Of a stretch of 64,000 nt of DNA, positions 41,399-56,075 are shown piece by piece. Both the position numbers and the translations under genes were made by a program. Location of the stretch: assembly GCA_019075865.1 (NCBI GenBank), contig JAGXAN010000008.1:1-64000 (forward strand), written 5' to 3'. Source of the stretch: Hyphomicrobiales bacterium. Lineage in GTDB: Bacteria > Pseudomonadota > Alphaproteobacteria > Rhizobiales > Beijerinckiaceae. How positions within the stretch are numbered: position 1 is the first letter of the stretch; every line of letters begins with the position of its first letter. The notes beneath the pieces are model-generated. The model worked only from the letters and a program-made list of their open reading frames with translations, was not told where the DNA came from and did not search any database.

Positions 41399-43474
41399 CT
41401 AAATATCGACACTCTCGACGGCAAACGCGGCGCGTTCTGTAATAAAGGCAAATCGCGCCTCGGGTTTGTTGCCCATCAGTCGATCAACGGCGTCTATGGT
41501 ATTTTCTCGGTCATCGGCGGCAATGGTCACTTTCAAAAGCAGGCGCTTTTTGGGGTCCATCGTGGTCTCTTTTAACTGGTCTGCGCGCATTTCGCCCAGC
41601 CCCTTGAAGCGGCCAATCTCGATTTTGCCTTTGCCGGTAATGACATTTTTCAAAAGGTGTTCGCGGTCGGCCTCATCACGCGCGTAATAGCGCTTGGTGC
41701 CTTGGGTCAGCGAATAAAGCGGCGGCACCGCGAGATAGAGATGCCCGCCATCAATCAATTTGGGCATCTCCCGATAAAAATAGGTAATGAGCAGCGAAGC
41801 AATATGCGCACCATCCACGTCCGCGTCGGTCATGATGATGATCTTTTCATAGCGCAGATCAGCATCCTTATAGTGGCTTCCCGTGCCGCAACCGAGCGCT
41901 TGCGCCAGATCGGACAATTGCTGGTTGGCCTGCAGTTTGTCTCGCGTCGCGCTGGCGACATTGAGGATCTTGCCACGCAGCGGCAAAATCGCCTGGTTGG
42001 CCCGATCCCGCGCCTGTTTGGCGGAACCGCCGGCCGAATCGCCTTCCACGATGAACAATTCGGAGCCTTGCGACGAATTATTGGAGCAATCGGCCAATTT
42101 ACCCGGCAGCCGCAGCTTTTTGACCAGGGATTTGCGCGCCACATCCTTTTCCGCGCGGCGGCGCAACCGGTCCTCGGCGCGCTCAATCGTCCAGTCGAGG
42201 AGCCGCGTCGCCTGCACGGGTGAACCCGCCAACCAGTGATCGAACGCATCGCGCACGCTGGTCTCGACAATCCGTGCCGCTTCGGCCGACATCAGACGGC
42301 CCTTGTTCTGGCCCTGAAATTCCGGCTCGCGGATGAAAATGGCGATCATCGCGGCGCAATTGAGCATGATATCGTCAGTGGTGATGCCGCTGGCCCGCTT
42401 GGTCTGGCCAATGCGTTCGGCATGGTCTTTCAGGCCGCGCAACATGGCGATCCGAAAACCGGCTTCATGGGTGCCGCCATCGGGGGTCGGAATGGTGTTG
42501 CAATAGGAGCGCACGAAACCATCTTCGCCCGCCTGCCACGCCACCGCCCATTCAATCGAGCCGTGCCGTCCGGGTTTGTCGATACGTCCGGTAAAGGGCT
42601 GGTCCGTCACCAATTCCCGTCCGTCGATTTCCTGCGCCAGATAATCCTTCAACCCACCCGGAAAGCGAAACACGGCTTCGGTGGGTATGGCACTGCCCGG
42701 CTCCAGCAGCCCTGGCGCGCAATGCCAGCGAATTTCAACGCCGCCAAACAGATAGGCTTTGGACCGCGCCATTTTGAAAATGCGCGCCGGCTTGAAATGC
42801 GCACCTTCGCCAAAAATCTGCGGGTCTGGCAGAAACCGCAGCCGGGTGCCGCGCCGGTTTTGCACGCGGCCAATGGTTTCCAGCGGCCCGATCGGGCTGC
42901 CACGTTCAAAAATCTGGCGGTACAGCGTCTGCTCGCGCGCCACCTCCACCTCAAGTCGCACCGACAGCGCATTGACCACCGAAACGCCAACCCCGTGCAA
43001 ACCGCCCGATGTCTCATAGGCCTTGGAATCAAACTTGCCGCCGGCATGCAGCGTGGTCATGATCACTTCAAGCGCTGATTTGTCGGGGAATTTCTTGTGG
43101 CGATCGACGGGTATGCCGCGGCCATTGTCCGAGACACACAACCAGCCTTCCGGTTCCATGCTTACTTCGATGAATGAGGCATGGCCAGCCACCGCTTCAT
43201 CCATGGAATTGTCGATAACTTCGGCAAACAGATGATGCAGCGCCGCTTCGTCCGTGCCGCCAATATACATGCCAGGGCGGCGGCGAACCGGCTCCAGCCC
43301 CTCAAGAACATCAATTGAATCCGCGTTATATTCGGCTTCCCCGGTCTTGGGTAAAGCCACGCGGGGCTCAGGCCGCACGACCGCCTTGCGCTGGCTTGCG
43401 CCGCGCACCGTCGCTCCCTCCGCGTCGGCTTTTGGGGCCACAACCGGCAATGATTCAAACAGGTCTTCGTTCAT
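41399..43474 (-). CDS. parE: DNA topoisomerase IV subunit B
   Basis: About 691 residues. GHKL ATPase motifs: EVIDNSMDEAVAG (about residue 87), DNGRGIPVD, TSGGLHGVGVSVVNALS. The TOPRIM domain has IVEGDSAGGSAKQARDR and the metal-binding MTDADVDGAHI, and GLGEMRADQLKETTMDP near the end is diagnostic for ParE/GyrB; the lack of a GyrB-size insertion favours ParE. With ParC it unlinks daughter chromosomes. Start: ATG at 43474; a GTG two codons upstream (43480) is equally possible. The first 45 residues are an extension before the conserved YNADSI. Confidence 0.93.
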   Translation of the reverse strand: MNEDLFESLPVVAPKADAEGATVRGASQRKAVVRPEPRVALPKTGEAEYNADSIDVLEGLEPVRRRPGMYIGGTDEAALHHLFAEVIDNSMDEAVAGHASFIEVSMEPEGWLCVSDNGRGIPVDRHKKFPDKSALEVIMTTLHAGGKFDSKAYETSGGLHGVGVSVVNALSVRLEVEVAREQTLYRQIFERGSPIGPLETIGRVQNRRGTRLRFLPDPQIFGEGAHFKPARIFKMARSKAYLFGGVEIRWHCAPGLLEPGSAIPTEAVFRFPGGLKDYLAQEIDGRELVTDQPFTGRIDKPGRHGSIEWAVAWQAGEDGFVRSYCNTIPTPDGGTHEAGFRIAMLRGLKDHAERIGQTKRASGITTDDIMLNCAAMIAIFIREPEFQGQNKGRLMSAEAARIVETSVRDAFDHWLAGSPVQATRLLDWTIERAEDRLRRRAEKDVARKSLVKKLRLPGKLADCSNNSSQGSELFIVEGDSAGGSAKQARDRANQAILPLRGKILNVASATRDKLQANQQLSDLAQALGCGTGSHYKDADLRYEKIIIMTDADVDGAHIASLLITYFYREMPKLIDGGHLYLAVPPLYSLTQGTKRYYARDEADREHLLKNVITGKGKIEIGRFKGLGEMRADQLKETTMDPKKRLLLKVTIAADDRENTIDAVDRLMGNKPEARFAFITERAAFAVESVDI

Positions 43475-48990: not shown

Positions 48991-50313
48991 ATGCGTATGT
49001 CGCGATATTTTCTTCCTATTTTGCGTGAAACCCCAAAAGAGGCGGAGATTGTGTCGCATCGCCTGATGCTTCGGGCCGGGATGATCCGCCAGGAAGCTTC
49101 CGGCATTTACGCTTGGCTGCCTTTGGGGCTGCGTGTGCTCGAAAAGATCAACAAGATCATTCGGGAAGAGCAAAACCGGGCAGGGGCGATTGAGTTGCTG
49201 ATGCCCACCATCCAATCAGCCGACCTTTGGCGGGAATCCGGCCGTTACGAAGATTACGGCAAGGAAATGCTGCGCATTCGCGATCGCCACGAGCGGGACA
49301 TGCTGTTTGGCCCGACCAACGAGGAAATGATCACCGAGATTTTCCGCGCCAACGTCAAGTCCTACCGCGATCTGCCCCTCAACCTCTATCACATCCAATG
49401 GAAATTCCGCGATGAAGTGCGCCCGCGCTTTGGCGTCATGCGGTCGCGCGAATTCCTGATGAAGGACGCCTATTCGTTTGATCTGGATGCGCGCGGCGCG
49501 CAGGAATCCTATCACCGGATGTTTGTCGCCTATTTGCGCACTTTCGCGCGGCTGGGCCTCACCGCCATCCCCATGAAAGCCGATACCGGGCCGATTGGTG
49601 GCGAAAACAGCCATGAATTCATTATTTTGGCGTCAACCGGCGAGAGCGAGGTCTATTGCCACAAGGATTTTCTGCAATTTTCATCGCCGCCCGACACGGT
49701 CAATTTTGATGACGCGGCCGAAATGGCGGCGATTGTCGAGAAATGGACGTCGCGTTACGCCGCCACTTCCGAAAAGCACGACCAAGCCGCCTTCGCCGCG
49801 CTGCCCAAAGACGAGCAGGTTTCGGCGCGTGGCATCGAGGTCGGCCATATTTTCACCTTCGGAACCAAATATTCAGTGCCGATGAAAGCCAATGTCAGCG
49901 GTCCGGACGGCAAGGAAGTGCCCGTGCACATGGGTAGCTATGGCATCGGCCCCTCGCGCCTGGTGGCGGCGCTGATTGAGGCCGGCCACGATGACAATGG
50001 CATCATCTGGCCCGATGCCGTGGCACCCTTCAATGTCGGCATTGCCAATCTCAAAATCGGCGACGCCGCCACCGACGCTGCCTGCACGAGGCTTTATGCC
50101 GCCATGCAAAAGGCCGGGATCGACACCCTTTACGATGACCGCGATGAGCGGCCGGGCGTGAAATTTGCGACCATGGACATGATCGGCGTGCCGCATCAGG
50201 TGATTGTCGGGCCCAAAGGCCTCGCCGAGGGAAAAATCGAACTGAAGGACCGCCGCAGCGGCGCGCGCGAAAACCTGAGCGTGGATGAAGTGATTGCGAG
50301 GTTGACCGCGTGA
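48991..50313 (+). CDS. proS: Prolyl-tRNA synthetase, short alphaproteobacterial type
   Basis: 440 residues, which lacks the large editing insertion found in the E. coli enzyme (about 570), as is normal in alphaproteobacteria. Class II motifs: [16 protein letters not shown], the motif 2 region [26 protein letters not shown], and [16 protein letters not shown] (motif 3). MRMSRYFLP at the start is typical; ATG at 48997 is an alternative. The stop overlaps the GTG start of the Lol permease gene, beginning the cluster proS, lolC/E, lolD. Confidence 0.95.
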
Positions 50314-51617
50314 GCATTGCCGCGACCAGCGAAACCGTGCCCGCAAAGGCCGCCCAGCCAACCGGAACGCGGCCATTTTCGGCATTTGAATGGATGGTGG
50401 CGCTGCGCTATTTGCGGGCGCGCCGCCAGAGTGGCTTTGTCTCGGTCATCGCCGGTTTTTCCTTTGCCGGCATTATGCTGGGTGTCGCCACATTGATTGT
50501 GGTCATGTCGGTGATGAACGGCTTTCGCTACGAATTGCTGTCCAAGATTGTTGGCGTCAATGGCCACATTTTCCTTCAGGCCGTTGGCAAACCGCTCGAT
50601 GATTATAATGATGTCGTCACCCGTGTCGCCAAAGTGCCCGGCGTGACCGTGGTTCTGCCTTTGGTGGAGGGCGCGGCCGGCGTATCATCGCAATACAACC
50701 AGTCAGGCGCCTTGGTGCGCGGCGTGCGCGAAAGCGATCTGAAGCGCTTGCCGGGCATAGCCGGCCATGTCGTTCAGGGCAGTCTCGATGGTTTTGACAC
50801 CAGCGGCGGCGTTGCGATTGGCGAGCGCATGGCCCAAACCCTGAGTTTGCAAGTCGGTGATTCCATTTCGATATTGATTGCCAAGGGCGCGCAGACCCCC
50901 TTCGGCATAGCCCCGCGCATCAAGGCCTATCCGGTAACCGCCATTTTCAAGATTGGCATGTCGGAATTCGACTCCACTTTCGTTTACATGCCTCTGGCAG
51001 AGGCGCAGGCCTTTTTCAACCGCGACAATGAAGCCAGCGTCATTGAGATTTTTGTAAAGAACCCAGACGATATGAACGGCATGCGCAAGAAAATCGACGC
51101 AGTTGTCGGGCGTCCGGTCATCATGACCGATTGGCGGGAGCGCAACCAGACCTTCTTTGACGCATTGAATGTCGAGCGCAATGTCATGTTCATCATTCTG
51201 GCGCTGATTGTGCTGGTGGCGGCGCTCAATATCATATCCGGGCTGATCATGCTGGTGAAGGACAAGGGCCGCGATATTGCTGTTTTGCGCACGATGGGCG
51301 CGACGCGCGGTGCCGTCATGCGGATTTTCCTGATCACCGGCGCCTTTATCGGCTTTGCCGGAACCCTGGCCGGCCTGCTGCTCGGCCTGCTCGTGGCCAG
51401 CAATATCGAGCACATCCGTCAGGGCCTGAACTGGCTGCTGGGCGCCAATCTGTTTCCCTCCGAATTGTATTTCCTCTCCACCCTGCCGTCGCGGATTGAG
51501 CCCTCGGACGTCATAACGGTGGTCGCCATGACCCTGTTCCTGTCCCTGGCAGCCACGCTTTATCCCTCTTGGCGCGCCGCCAAACTCGATCCGGTTGAGG
51601 CTTTGCGTTACGAATGA
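50310..51617 (+). CDS. Lipoprotein-releasing ABC transporter permease (LolC/LolE-type)
   Basis: 435 residues with four membrane segments: one at about 45-70 after the [22 protein letters not shown] start, three near the C-terminus (about 290-320, 345-370, 395-415), with a periplasmic MacB-like domain between. [12 protein letters not shown]-type sequence ([26 protein letters not shown]) is the FtsX/LolE signature. With LolD it lifts lipoproteins from the inner membrane to LolA. As in many alphaproteobacteria, one permease gene replaces separate lolC and lolE. GTG start overlaps proS; the stop overlaps the lolD start. Confidence 0.93.
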
Positions 51618-52297
51618 GCGACCCCGTTCTCTATATCCACCAAGCCGAACGCCGCTACCAGCAGGGCGAATCGAGTCTGGAAATCCTCAAAAAAGCCGAC
51701 ATCGCGCTTTGGCCAGGCCAGTCGGTTGCGCTGGTTGCGCCATCCGGTGCCGGCAAATCGACCCTGTTGCACATGGCCGGACTGCTGGAGCAGCCCGATG
51801 CGGGCGAGGTGTATATTGATGGTCAGCCGACCACCCATATGAACGATGATCAGCGCACGCTGCTGCGCCGCTTGCGGATCGGCTTTGTGTATCAGATGCA
51901 CCATTTGCAGCCCGAATTTACCGCCAGCGAAAATGTCATGCTGCCGCAGATGATCCGGGGTCTCTCCCGTAGGGAAGCGCAACGCCGCGCCCATGAATTG
52001 CTGGATTACCTCGGGCTTGGCCAGCGCAAGACCCATCGCCCAGCGCAATTGTCGGGTGGCGAACAGCAGCGCGTCGCCATTGCCCGCGCCGTGGCCAATG
52101 CCCCCAATATCCTGCTGGCGGACGAGCCGACCGGTAATCTGGATCCGGTTACCGCAGACAAGGTTTTCGGCACGCTCACCACGCTGGTCAAAGCCACAGG
52201 TCTGGCGGCGCTGATTGCCACCCATAATCTGGATCTTGCCGCCCGAATGGATCGCCGCGTCACCTTGCGTGATGGGCAGGTGGTTGAATTGCCATGA
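51614..52297 (+). CDS. lolD: Lipoprotein-releasing ABC transporter ATP-binding protein
   Basis: 227 residues. Walker [13 protein letters not shown] (about residue 43), Q-loop [21 protein letters not shown], signature [17 protein letters not shown], Walker [13 protein letters not shown] and the H-loop IATHNLD are all intact. It powers the LolC/E permease encoded just upstream (ATGA overlap). The following gap of 131 bp holds the LexA box and small-peptide promoter. Confidence 0.95.
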
Positions 52298-52328
52298 GAT
52301 GGCAAGCCGCGCAAAGCGTATTTGGGGC

Positions 52329-52343
52329 GAACATAGTCCGAAC
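52329..52343. promoter_or_regulatory. LexA (SOS) box, GAAC-N7-GAAC
   Basis: GAAC (52329-52332), ATAGTCC, GAAC (52340-52343) is an exact match to the direct-repeat operator bound by alphaproteobacterial LexA (GTTC-N7-GTTC or its complement). It lies 100 bp before the 34-codon peptide gene. A second, one-mismatch copy, GAAC-N7-AAAC, occurs at 52381-52395 inside the promoter spacer. Confidence 0.75.
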
Positions 52344-52372
52344 GAATTTGCGACAGGAACCCAAAATAGCAC

Positions 52373-52400
52373 TTGACTTAGAACAAATATGAAACATACT
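52373..52400 (+). promoter_or_regulatory. Sigma-70-type promoter for the small membrane peptide and possibly dnaE
   Basis: TTGACT (52373-52378) and CATACT (52395-52400) are spaced by 16 bases, 28 bp before the peptide start codon. The imperfect LexA box lies in the spacer and overlaps the first base of the -10 element, a position at which LexA binding would block RNA polymerase. Confidence 0.55.
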
Positions 52401-52428
52401 GGGCCTACAAGAACAAATGAGGTCCATC

Positions 52429-52533
52429 ATGTTCAAGTATGCGTTGCAGTCCGTGTGTCTCGGGGTTTTGGAATTGAGTGCGATTGCGGCCTATGTCGCA
52501 TTTGTGATGATTGTGGGCCGCTCGCTGGCGTAA
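52429..52533 (+). CDS. 34-residue single-pass membrane peptide, probable SOS gene
   Basis: ATG at 52429 is preceded by GAGG at 9 bases. The peptide starts MFKYALQSVCLGVLELSAIA and ends VMIVGRSLA: a short basic N-terminus, one hydrophobic helix at about residues 8-29, and an Arg-containing end, as expected of an inner-membrane peptide. A promoter and LexA boxes lie just upstream, and dnaE begins 38 bp after its stop. Size, topology and regulation resemble SidA of Caulobacter (29 residues, SOS-induced inhibitor of cell division), but I see no direct sequence match that would prove homology. It could also be a leader peptide or a small accessory of the replication gene. Confidence 0.65.
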   Translation: MFKYALQSVCLGVLELSAIAAYVAFVMIVGRSLA

Positions 52534-52571
52534 GGTCAGGCAGTGGCCGGATTGGGAGTGGGGGTTAGGCG

Positions 52572-55500
52572 ATGCAGGGCAGCCCGGGATTTGTCCATCT
52601 TCATGTCCATTCGGCTTATTCCCTGCGGGAAGGGGCGCTGTCGGTAGAGGCGCTCGCCAAACTGGCGGTCGCCGACAAAATGCCGGCGCTTGCCATTACC
52701 GACACCAACAACCTGTTCGGTGCGCTGGAATTTTCGGAATATATGGTCAAAAACGGCGTACAGCCGATTATAGGGCTGCAAGCGAACCTGAATTTTGCCG
52801 ATGCGGCGTCGCTGGGTATGCGACAGGAACTCGCCGGGGCCGGCACTGGTTCGATCGTGTTGCTGGCAAAATCGGAGATGGGCTACGCCAATCTGATGAA
52901 GATTGCCTCCAAACTGCATTTGGAGGCGGATCCTTCCGAGGGGCCAGCGCTGCATCTGGAAAAGCTCGATGGCCTTGTCGATGGCCTGATCGCGCTTTCG
53001 GGTGGCTCGGAGGGGGCGATATCGCCATGGTTTGGCCGCGAGCGCCCGGAAATGGCGATGGGCCGGTTGCAGCGCTTAGAAAAATTATTTGGCGAGCGGC
53101 TTTTCATTGAATTGCAGCGTCATGACACAGCCGATGAGCGCGCCAGTGAAGCCGCTTTGATTGATTACGCTTATCAGCACTCGCTGGGGCTGGTGGCGAC
53201 CAACGAACCCTATTTTGCCAGCCAGCGGGATTTTGAAGCCCATGACGCGCTGATCTGCATTGCCCAGAACAGCTTTTTGAGCGCGCAGGATCGTCGCCAA
53301 TTGACGCCCAAGCACAGCTTTCTGCCGCGCCGCGATATGTTGAAGCTATTTTCCGACCTGCCGGAGGCCTGCGCCAATACGGTGGAAATTGCCCGCGCCT
53401 GCGCCTATCGGCCCAAGCCCCGCAAACCCATTTTGCCCAATTTTACCGCATTGGACGGCACTGCGCTGGATGAAGTGGGTGAATTGCGCACGCAGGCCTT
53501 GCAGGGCCTCACCGATCGCCTGGCTGCCAATGGCATGGCGCCAGGACTGACGCTGGAAGATTATCAACAGCGTCTCGAATTTGAGCTGGATGTCATCATC
53601 AAGATGAAGTTTCCAGGTTACTTCCTGATTGTTGCCGATTTTATCCGCTACGCCAAGCGCGAGCACATTCCGGTCGGGCCGGGCCGTGGGTCGGGTGCCG
53701 GATCGCTGGTGGCCTATAGTTTGCAGATCACCGATCTTGACCCATTGCGTTTTGGCCTGCTGTTTGAGCGGTTTCTCAACCCCGAACGTATTTCAATGCC
53801 CGATTTCGACATTGATTTTTGTCAGGATCGCCGCGATGAGGTGATTGCCTATGTGCGCGGCCGTTACGGGCGCGACCGGGTGGCGCAAATCATCACCTTT
53901 GGGTCGTTTCTGGCGCGCGGGGTCATGCGCAACGTCGGCCGCGTGCTGGAAATGCCGCTTGGCCAGGTCGACAAGCTCGCCAAACTGGTGCCGCAGAACC
54001 CGGCCAAGCCGATGAAATTGGTGGAGGCCATCGCCACCGAAACCCGTTTGCGTGAAGCGGCCGATTCTGAGCCCAAAATTGCCCGCATGCTGACCATTGC
54101 CCAGACCCTTGAGGGGCTTTTGTCGAATGCCTCCACCCATGCCGCCGGTATTGTCATCGGCGATCGCCCGCTGGATCAATTGGTGCCGCTTTACCGCGAC
54201 CCTAAATCCGACATGCCTGCCACCCAATTCAACATGAAATGGGTTGAGGCGGCCGGTCTGGTCAAATTCGACTTTCTCGGGTTGAAAACCCTAACAATTT
54301 TGGCCAAGGCAGTGGCTTTGTTGAAAGATCGCAAAATTCAGGTAAACTTGGCCGCCATACCGCTTGACGACAAATTGACTTTTGAATTGCTTGGTCGCGG
54401 CGAAACCGTCGGCGTGTTCCAGTTGGAAAGCGCGGGCATGCGCAAGGCCCTTGTCGACATGCGCGCCGACCGCTTTGAAGATATTATCGCGCTGGTCGCC
54501 CTGTATCGGCCCGGTCCGATGGAAAACATTCCCACCTATTGCGCCCGCAAACTGGGCGAGGAAGACCCCGAATATTACCATCCCCTGATCCAGCCGGTGC
54601 TGCAGGAAACTTTCGGTGTCATCATTTATCAGGAACAGGTGATGCAGATCGCCCAGACCCTGTCGGGCTATTCGCTCGGTGAGGCCGATGTTCTGCGCCG
54701 CGCCATGGGTAAAAAGATCAAGCGGGAGATGGATGCGCAGCGCGAGCGCTTCGTCGAGGGCGCGCTCAAGCGCGATCTGAAATCCGAACAGGCGAATGAG
54801 ATTTTTGATCTGCTGGCGAAATTTGCCGATTACGGCTTCAACAAGAGCCATGCCGCCGCCTATGCGCTGATCGCTTATCAGACGGCATGGTTCAAGGCCA
54901 ATTATCCGGTTGAATTCATGGCTGCTTCCATGTCGCTCGACCGTTCGAACACCGACAAGCTCGCTGAATTTCGCAACGAGGCGCTGCGCATGGGAATTGG
55001 GGTGGCCGGGCCTTGCGTCAATCGTTCGGGCAAGGACTTTGAAGTTCAAAAAGGTGTTGGCGACGTGCTTTCCATTCGCTACGCGCTGTCGGCGGTCAAG
55101 GGTGTCGGCGAAGGGCAGGCGCGCGCTATTGTCGAGTCGAGGCGCAGTGGCCCTTTCAAAAGCCTGGCGGATTTTGGCCGACGCGTGAACCCGCATGAGA
55201 TCAACAAGCGCGTAGTGGAAACGCTGGCGGCGGCCGGTGGTTTTGATGCAATCGAGCCGTCGCGCGCCCGCGTTTGCCTCAATGTCGAGACGATTCTGGG
55301 TTTGGGTGCCGCCTCCCATGCCGATGCAATGTCGGGCCAGAATGCCTTGTTTGATGTGGGAGAAAGTGACGCCGTCACCTGGGTGCAGGCCAAGGAATGG
55401 CAAACCGCCGAACGCATGAAGCGCGAATTTGATGCAGTCGGCTTTTTTCTGTCCGGGCACCCGCTGGATGATTATGCCAGCGTGATGAAGCGTATGCGTT

Positions 55501-56075
55501 TAACCGATTGGCGCCAGTTCGTCCATTCGGTGCGCCATGGCGCTGCCGCCGGACGCCTGGCCGCCGTCGTGCTGGAGCGAACCGAACGGCGCACCAAAAC
55601 CGGCAATAAAATGGGTATTGTCACGCTTTCGGACGCCAGCGGGCAATATGAAGCCATTATGTTTCAGGAGGGTCTCGATCAATTTCGCGATGCGCTGGAA
55701 AAGGGCGCTTTGGTTATTGTCTCGCTGCAGGCCAATCTGGATGGCGAGGAAGTCCGCGCCCGGATCATCAATGTCGAAGCTTTGGAGCCAGCCGCAGCCC
55801 GCGTGCAAAAGGGGGTGCGGATTTTTATTCGTGATGCGTCCGCGCTCGATATGATGCACGATTGCCTCAGGGCGCAGGCTGGCAGCGGCGATGGAAATCG
55901 GGAAGGCCACAACACGCGCGACCATGCGCCGCTGGGAGATGTGTCGGTGATTTTGATGCTGGGAAGCCAGTTGGGCGAAGTGGAGATGCGATTGCCAAAC
56001 CGCTATCCGGTTACATCGCGGATGACCGGTGCGCTCAAGGCGCTGCCCGGCATTGTATCGGTGGAGGCGGTCTAG
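52572..56075 (+). CDS. dnaE: DNA polymerase III alpha subunit
   Basis: 1167 residues. The N-terminal PHP domain starts FVHLHVHSAYSLREGALSVEAL. The polymerase active site has GPGRGSGAGSLVAY, then PDFDIDFCQDRRDEVIAYV with catalytic aspartates, and GFNKSHAAAYALIAYQTAWFKANYPVEF in the fingers; an OB domain (about 980-1070) follows. The complete PHP motif and the proS-lol neighbourhood mark the replicative DnaE1, not the error-prone DnaE2/ImuC. It may share the SOS-linked promoter of the small peptide gene. Confidence 0.96.
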   Translation: MQGSPGFVHLHVHSAYSLREGALSVEALAKLAVADKMPALAITDTNNLFGALEFSEYMVKNGVQPIIGLQANLNFADAASLGMRQELAGAGTGSIVLLAKSEMGYANLMKIASKLHLEADPSEGPALHLEKLDGLVDGLIALSGGSEGAISPWFGRERPEMAMGRLQRLEKLFGERLFIELQRHDTADERASEAALIDYAYQHSLGLVATNEPYFASQRDFEAHDALICIAQNSFLSAQDRRQLTPKHSFLPRRDMLKLFSDLPEACANTVEIARACAYRPKPRKPILPNFTALDGTALDEVGELRTQALQGLTDRLAANGMAPGLTLEDYQQRLEFELDVIIKMKFPGYFLIVADFIRYAKREHIPVGPGRGSGAGSLVAYSLQITDLDPLRFGLLFERFLNPERISMPDFDIDFCQDRRDEVIAYVRGRYGRDRVAQIITFGSFLARGVMRNVGRVLEMPLGQVDKLAKLVPQNPAKPMKLVEAIATETRLREAADSEPKIARMLTIAQTLEGLLSNASTHAAGIVIGDRPLDQLVPLYRDPKSDMPATQFNMKWVEAAGLVKFDFLGLKTLTILAKAVALLKDRKIQVNLAAIPLDDKLTFELLGRGETVGVFQLESAGMRKALVDMRADRFEDIIALVALYRPGPMENIPTYCARKLGEEDPEYYHPLIQPVLQETFGVIIYQEQVMQIAQTLSGYSLGEADVLRRAMGKKIKREMDAQRERFVEGALKRDLKSEQANEIFDLLAKFADYGFNKSHAAAYALIAYQTAWFKANYPVEFMAASMSLDRSNTDKLAEFRNEALRMGIGVAGPCVNRSGKDFEVQKGVGDVLSIRYALSAVKGVGEGQARAIVESRRSGPFKSLADFGRRVNPHEINKRVVETLAAAGGFDAIEPSRARVCLNVETILGLGAASHADAMSGQNALFDVGESDAVTWVQAKEWQTAERMKREFDAVGFFLSGHPLDDYASVMKRMRLTDWRQFVHSVRHGAAAGRLAAVVLERTERRTKTGNKMGIVTLSDASGQYEAIMFQEGLDQFRDALEKGALVIVSLQANLDGEEVRARIINVEALEPAAARVQKGVRIFIRDASALDMMHDCLRAQAGSGDGNREGHNTRDHAPLGDVSVILMLGSQLGEVEMRLPNRYPVTSRMTGALKALPGIVSVEAV

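Follow-up and report, generated by a model that had tools for sequence, protein, structure and literature searches.

What is encoded by the short frame that stands directly before dnaE in a Hyphomicrobiales bacterium of the Beijerinckiaceae (GCA_019075865.1), and is it part of the SOS response? We analyzed a 64,000-nt stretch of contig JAGXAN010000008.1 (hereafter the window), for which a preliminary description had proposed an SOS-controlled, SidA-like membrane peptide linking DNA damage to cell division or to DnaE. The locus is organized as follows.

50310-51617, forward strand: lolC/lolE-type permease gene (TIGR02212 lolCE, 487 bits, above cut-off)
51614-52297, forward strand: lolD-type ABC ATPase gene (TIGR02211 LolD as best model, 241.6 bits, below the cut-off of 307.75)
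52329-52343, forward strand: exact GAAC-N7-GAAC, a possible auxiliary LexA site or a chance occurrence, GAACATAGTCCGAAC
52373-52378, forward strand: -35 hexamer TTGACT (TTGAC unchanged across the window and its three congeners)
52381-52395, forward strand: one-mismatch LexA box GAAC-N7-AAAC, candidate operator in the promoter spacer, GAACAAATATGAAAC
52395-52400, forward strand: -10 hexamer CATACT (CATA-x-T unchanged across the window and its three congeners)
52419-52422, forward strand: ribosome site GAGG, 6 nt 5' of the ATG
52429-52533, forward strand: 34-codon gene (coordinates include the stop codon) for a putative SidA-like single-helix peptide (frame, helix and profile A2)
52534-52571, forward strand: 38-nt gap between the peptide gene and dnaE, without a terminator-like site
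52572-56075, forward strand: dnaE, DNA polymerase III alpha (NF004226, 1395 bits, above cut-off)

The elements on which the proposal had been built were all present as described, namely the exact box, the one-mismatch box within the TTGACT/CATACT spacer, the GAGG ribosome site and the 34-codon frame with one hydrophobic helix, on which Kyte-Doolittle and AlphaFold2 analyses agree. The peptide start lies 131 nt behind the end of the lolD-type gene (52297). The two hexamers, spaced by 16 nt, form the sole sigma70-like match in 52200-52650, and shuffled versions of this interval gave a mean of 0.4 matches (sd 0.6). An alternative in-frame ATG at 52417 would yield a 38-aa peptide; the start at 52429 is favoured because of the ribosome site and the start positions in congeners. 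The resulting 34-aa peptide has a best 19-residue Kyte-Doolittle mean of 2.27, and AlphaFold2 run on the single sequence predicted one helix spanning residues 3-33 (pLDDT 92.9, pTM 0.51), suggesting that the peptide sits in the inner membrane.

One explanation for such a locus is a chance frame behind chance boxes. Short frames are common, the window contains no excess of GAAC-N7-GAAC when one mismatch is tolerated (32 sites, 36.9 expected), and exact GAAC-N7-GAAC is not enriched genome-wide (48 copies versus 131 of the pattern read backwards). The boxes alone therefore prove little, and the case rests on conservation in relatives. There the frame and box were found again, and together with the permuted-motif controls, the selection among congeners and the boxes at loci found by a protein-only profile, all presented below, this makes a chance origin extremely improbable. 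Indeed, sequence comparison indicates that the conservation of the second box, the promoter and the frame in relatives is beyond chance.

In three congeners a 35-codon frame occupies the same place, which bears out the expectation that a frame of 30-40 residues is kept in close relatives. All three share the promoter TTGACA-[GAAC-N7-GAAC]-CATA[CA]T, in which the exact box is aligned with the 52381 box of the window, and no exact box was found elsewhere in the three congener loci examined. The conservation expected of the box in relatives thus holds at the 52381 place and fails at 52329, where the congeners have no exact counterpart. For this reason the exact box at 52329, tried as the operator, was demoted, and the one-mismatch copy at 52381-52395 is likely the LexA operator here. 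The 52329 box is possibly a helper LexA site or else a chance occurrence; the helper role was kept because the box of lexA likewise has a G+C-rich spacer and because many relatives carry two boxes. At L302, L303, L305, L313, L318, L320, L331 and other loci the frame is preceded by a pair of LexA-type boxes spaced 17 or 21 nt; the two boxes of the window are 52 nt apart.

The window's genome encodes lexA, whose start lies 112 nt behind an exact box, and contains seven exact boxes with A+T-rich spacers (6-7 of 7 positions). Boxes of the latter kind precede recA, radA and ssb (all above NCBIfam cut-offs; ssb divergent from a uvrA-like frame), an alkB gene scoring 196 bits against a cut-off of 267, an rmuC-like gene that reaches 31 bits of the required 810 and stands divergently to a def-like frame, and an imuA-like gene, the names uvrA, def and imuA resting on N-termini or place rather than on a family search. 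The remaining one of these seven boxes (L292, G000:C17:4338-4352) stands before a 159-codon frame that had no NCBIfam match at 1e-5 and is a candidate SOS gene. With a matrix of the seven A+T-rich boxes, which were picked after the genome box list, omit the lexA box and favour 52381, the 52381 box came second in the window with 14.1 bits, and the 52329 box, with 10.3 bits, shared the seventh and eighth places. The top box-like site of the window by this matrix, GAACATCAATTGAAT at 43306-43320 (15.7 bits), lies inside a frame of the opposite strand that, from its sequence, we take to be ParE-like.

Comparison among the three congeners gave pN/pS values of 0.07, 0.13 and 0.17 and not a single difference at second codon positions, which indicates purifying selection on their frames. 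Of the four genus copies, that of the window has diverged furthest. When one codon is gapped, it shares 13-14 of 33 residues with the congeners, 11-12 of them among the last 21, and its pN/pS against them is 0.83-0.92 at synonymous differences of 0.47-0.55. Selection is accordingly established for the congeners without being shown for the window copy, so that the protein-like codon bias predicted for this frame was found among the congeners and not in the window copy.

The peptide of the window is also the weakest of its genus by sequence. Search with the single peptide in the genus and family was tried and set aside as unconvincing alone, as it returned the congeners at E values of 0.18-0.33 amid chance matches in long frames. 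When seven members were run against Pfam and NCBIfam at E <= 10, each database returned a single match of chance quality (E 0.25 and 0.11) that fell well short of its cut-off. A profile made without the window's genus ranked the peptide first among the 1595 frames of the window, yet at E = 1.3, with the next frame at E = 1.5; 15 of 1000 shuffles scored as high as the peptide, and 32 of 1000 reached it when Caulobacterales were left out as well. For two of the congeners no shuffle out of 1000 reached the peptide with either profile, and the third was reached by 2 of 1000 and 5 of 1000, respectively. With the protein-only profile A2, which comprises 29 members and includes the window peptide, the peptide was the sole match at E <= 1 in the window's genome (E = 1.2e-5).

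We surveyed the regions upstream of dnaE across the Alphaproteobacteria. The dnaE N-terminus was matched in 38 of the 41 relatives, in 147 of the 153 class genomes and in all 30 genomes from named loci. From the 148 match rows of the class genomes the 82 with the strongest matches were used (80 after two drops), and 30 of a further list of 80 loci were carried on. In total 145 upstream regions were examined, stronger dnaE matches first; they include related genera and are not independent. L028 (G003, contig end) and the mis-registered L064 and L074 were left out, and L248, which failed the dnaE motif check and may be mis-registered, stays among the 145. The layout was scored when a box with 0-1 mismatch preceded a hydrophobic frame 23-50 codons long whose first codon lay 25-94 nt from where the box begins. 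Box, short one-helix frame and dnaE were found in this layout in 59 of the 145 regions, a biased estimate of the class frequency because upstream DNA was taken for the stronger dnaE matches; the 59 include two doubtful frames (L055 and L128) that were kept out of the profiles. The conservation of frame and box thus extends to many members of the class. The other 86 regions are without the layout, among them six of the 30 named genomes; box and frame before dnaE are missing at L251 and L259 (Brevundimonas), L238 (Mesorhizobium), L241 (Tianweitania), L245 (Nitratireductor) and L248 (Hyphomicrobium; possibly mis-registered).

Exact boxes occur in 50 of the 145 regions, and 45 of these are followed within 90 nt by the start of a short hydrophobic ATG frame. 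The same search gave 0-1 cases with 11 permuted half-sites, 0-3 with six other spacings and 4 with the opposite orientation. With one mismatch allowed, 57 of 145 regions scored, and the controls gave 2-13 with permuted half-sites, 1-14 with altered spacing and 12 with the orientation reversed; the box of the window has a mismatch, and its control is therefore the less sharp one. Over the 59 regions the distance from box to start was 44-56 nt in 45, and the peptides were 25-47 residues long (25-38 in 55). The family alignment has no invariant or near-invariant column and a mean column identity of 33%; its frequent features, by our reading, are a [KRE]-[DE] pair followed by A-[AE]-[LF]-x-S-[ILV] and F-x-A. 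L068 and L081 (G286 and G172) carry an N-terminal extension of ~15 residues (47 aa in all) ahead of the usual helix motif.

Profile A2 uses no box information. It matched 123 of 149 family genomes at E <= 1 and 93 of 149 at E <= 1e-3, training genomes included. Its best 30 loci were examined, of which 29 were readable (L304 was mis-registered at a contig end), and in all 29 the 130 nt upstream hold a box with 0-1 mismatch. Of the best 30, twenty come from genomes outside A2, which are relatives of A2 members and include one near-identical congener (G001); a box is present in 20 of 20 and exact in 17. Among these 20, dnaE lies within 500 nt downstream in 16, and L309 (G099), L325 (G111), L326 (G087) and L328 (G017) have frame and box with no dnaE within 1.5 kb, so the gene and its box can exist apart from dnaE. 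In G017 the dnaE match is ~160 kb from the SidA-like frame on the same contig.

These loci bear on the relation of the peptide to dnaE, of which the window's genome has a second gene of the same type (G000:C16:245273-248305). The closeness of dnaE, 38 nt away in the window and with 27-309 nt between frame and dnaE match over the 59 cases, would suit control of dnaE through translation of a leader peptide; regulation of dnaE would then be what is conserved. The peptide gene, however, has its own promoter and box, selection among the congeners acts at the amino-acid level, the gap range is wide, and four of the 20 non-A2 genomes have box and peptide with no dnaE within 1.5 kb; a leader function is hence quite improbable. 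The gap range also implies that tight coupling to dnaE is not general. What speaks for the putative functional link to DnaE that had been put forward is position, and the same four genomes lack the neighbour within 1.5 kb. The lolD-type gene was rejected as a generally fixed neighbour: in a sequence-signature search it accompanied 17 of the 44 peptide loci whose upstream sequence extends over 1400 nt or more, and it was beside the peptide gene in none of six Caulobacter loci.

How does the frame relate to SidA? Caulobacter SidA is described as a 29-residue inner-membrane peptide that, in the proposed model, holds FtsW/I/N inactive (PMC4211646), and it is also described as LexA-repressed and as interacting with FtsW and FtsN. 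SidA is listed as CCNA_02004 (PMC11034885), Caulobacter dnaE and recN as CC1926 and CC1983 (PMC1839093), and recN as CCNA_02062 (PMC12700426); the recN and dnaE numbering would thus place CCNA_02004 at dnaE or within a gene or two of it. A frame directly before dnaE was found at all six Caulobacter loci examined (hibisci, D5, AP07, BK020, 17J65-9 and one MAG). It is 29 codons long, or 30 in the case of 17J65-9, follows one-mismatch boxes of the GAAC-N7-GAAT type and lies 36-44 nt from the dnaE match in five loci and 139 nt in one, compared with 38 nt in the window. A profile built without Caulobacterales and the window's genus matched all six Caulobacter peptides better than any of 1000 shuffles. 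We infer that these frames of 29-30 residues, read in species other than C. crescentus, are SidA. Like SidA, the window peptide is very short, has a single helix, stands behind what by sequence is a LexA-box promoter and, as the Caulobacter frames are, is placed before dnaE. It differs from SidA in its length (34 versus 29 residues), in four extra residues before the helix core, in the absence of the [KRE]-[DE] pair common in the family, and in low pairwise identity.

Other damage-induced division inhibitors are less close. DidA of Caulobacter is described as a damage-induced, one-helix division inhibitor, but it has 71 aa, binds FtsN, and is SOS-independent and DriD-activated; with 34 aa, not ~71, and a conserved LexA box, the window peptide was rejected as a DidA member. 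YneA of Bacillus subtilis, described as interacting with FtsW, and SosA of Staphylococcus aureus are likewise described as SOS-induced division inhibitors; they belong to other lineages, and it is their descriptions that are set beside the window peptide here. SulA of E. coli also blocks division upon SOS induction, but it is described as acting on FtsZ. SulA is soluble and larger.

Taken together, 52429-52533 is, with good though not full confidence, a sidA-type gene, with a LexA-shut promoter opened by damage and a peptide that would hold division back. The proposal of an SOS-controlled SidA-like membrane peptide thus draws support from the conservation of box and frame and from a SidA-sized Caulobacter member at the same locus. 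In the mechanism we propose, LexA bound to 52381-52395 would cover the spacer between the -35 and -10 hexamers, whose sequence and conservation are observed, and would shut the promoter. DNA damage leads to RecA-triggered cleavage of LexA, and lexA and recA are both present with boxes. The promoter would then open, and the 34-residue peptide with its predicted helix would be made and probably enter the inner membrane. By analogy with Caulobacter SidA, it may keep the FtsW/FtsI/FtsN septal wall-synthesis complex inactive until repair, a division block through FtsW that is carried over to the window peptide on account of its family membership. An ftsW-type gene is present in the genome (327.8 bits, slightly below the model cut-off of 337.5).

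An SOS-induced peptide of this kind might instead act on the membrane itself, causing depolarisation and growth arrest, as in the case of E. coli TisB, an SOS-induced peptide acting on the membrane, or DinQ. The size class, the single helix and the SOS control would all be the same. According to its description, DinQ is toxic and crosses the inner membrane once (PMC3567139), and antisense RNAs to dinQ are described. The family's continuity with Caulobacter 29-mers matching SidA in length and position argues for the divisome rather than the membrane as the target, and the frequent polar pair before the helix core, together with F-x-A, hints weakly at a protein partner. We therefore consider direct action on the membrane unlikely, and favour a SidA-type division inhibitor.

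SOS transcription from the peptide promoter may, more weakly, continue into dnaE across the 38-nt gap. No terminator-like site was found in this gap, and the only match of the scan (52485-52500) lies inside the peptide frame, so co-transcription of the peptide with dnaE is possible from the sequence. We further entertain, as a tentative reading that is rather more apt to fail than to hold, that SidA represents one side of an ancient and widespread dnaE-anchored checkpoint of the Alphaproteobacteria, in which brake and polymerase share one SOS transcript and the peptide changes rapidly because it follows its partner in the divisome. If so, division block and repair synthesis would rise together.

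Among the literature matches listed, SidA is described for Caulobacter only, and no SidA-type peptide before dnaE outside Caulobacter was found in their titles and abstract openings. The dnaE upstream region together with a LexA box offers a simple handle for finding SidA counterparts despite low identity, and the putative counterparts found here include those of rhizobia and Agrobacterium. With these, the SidA-FtsW model would become testable in many lineages, including the unipolarly growing Rhizobiales.
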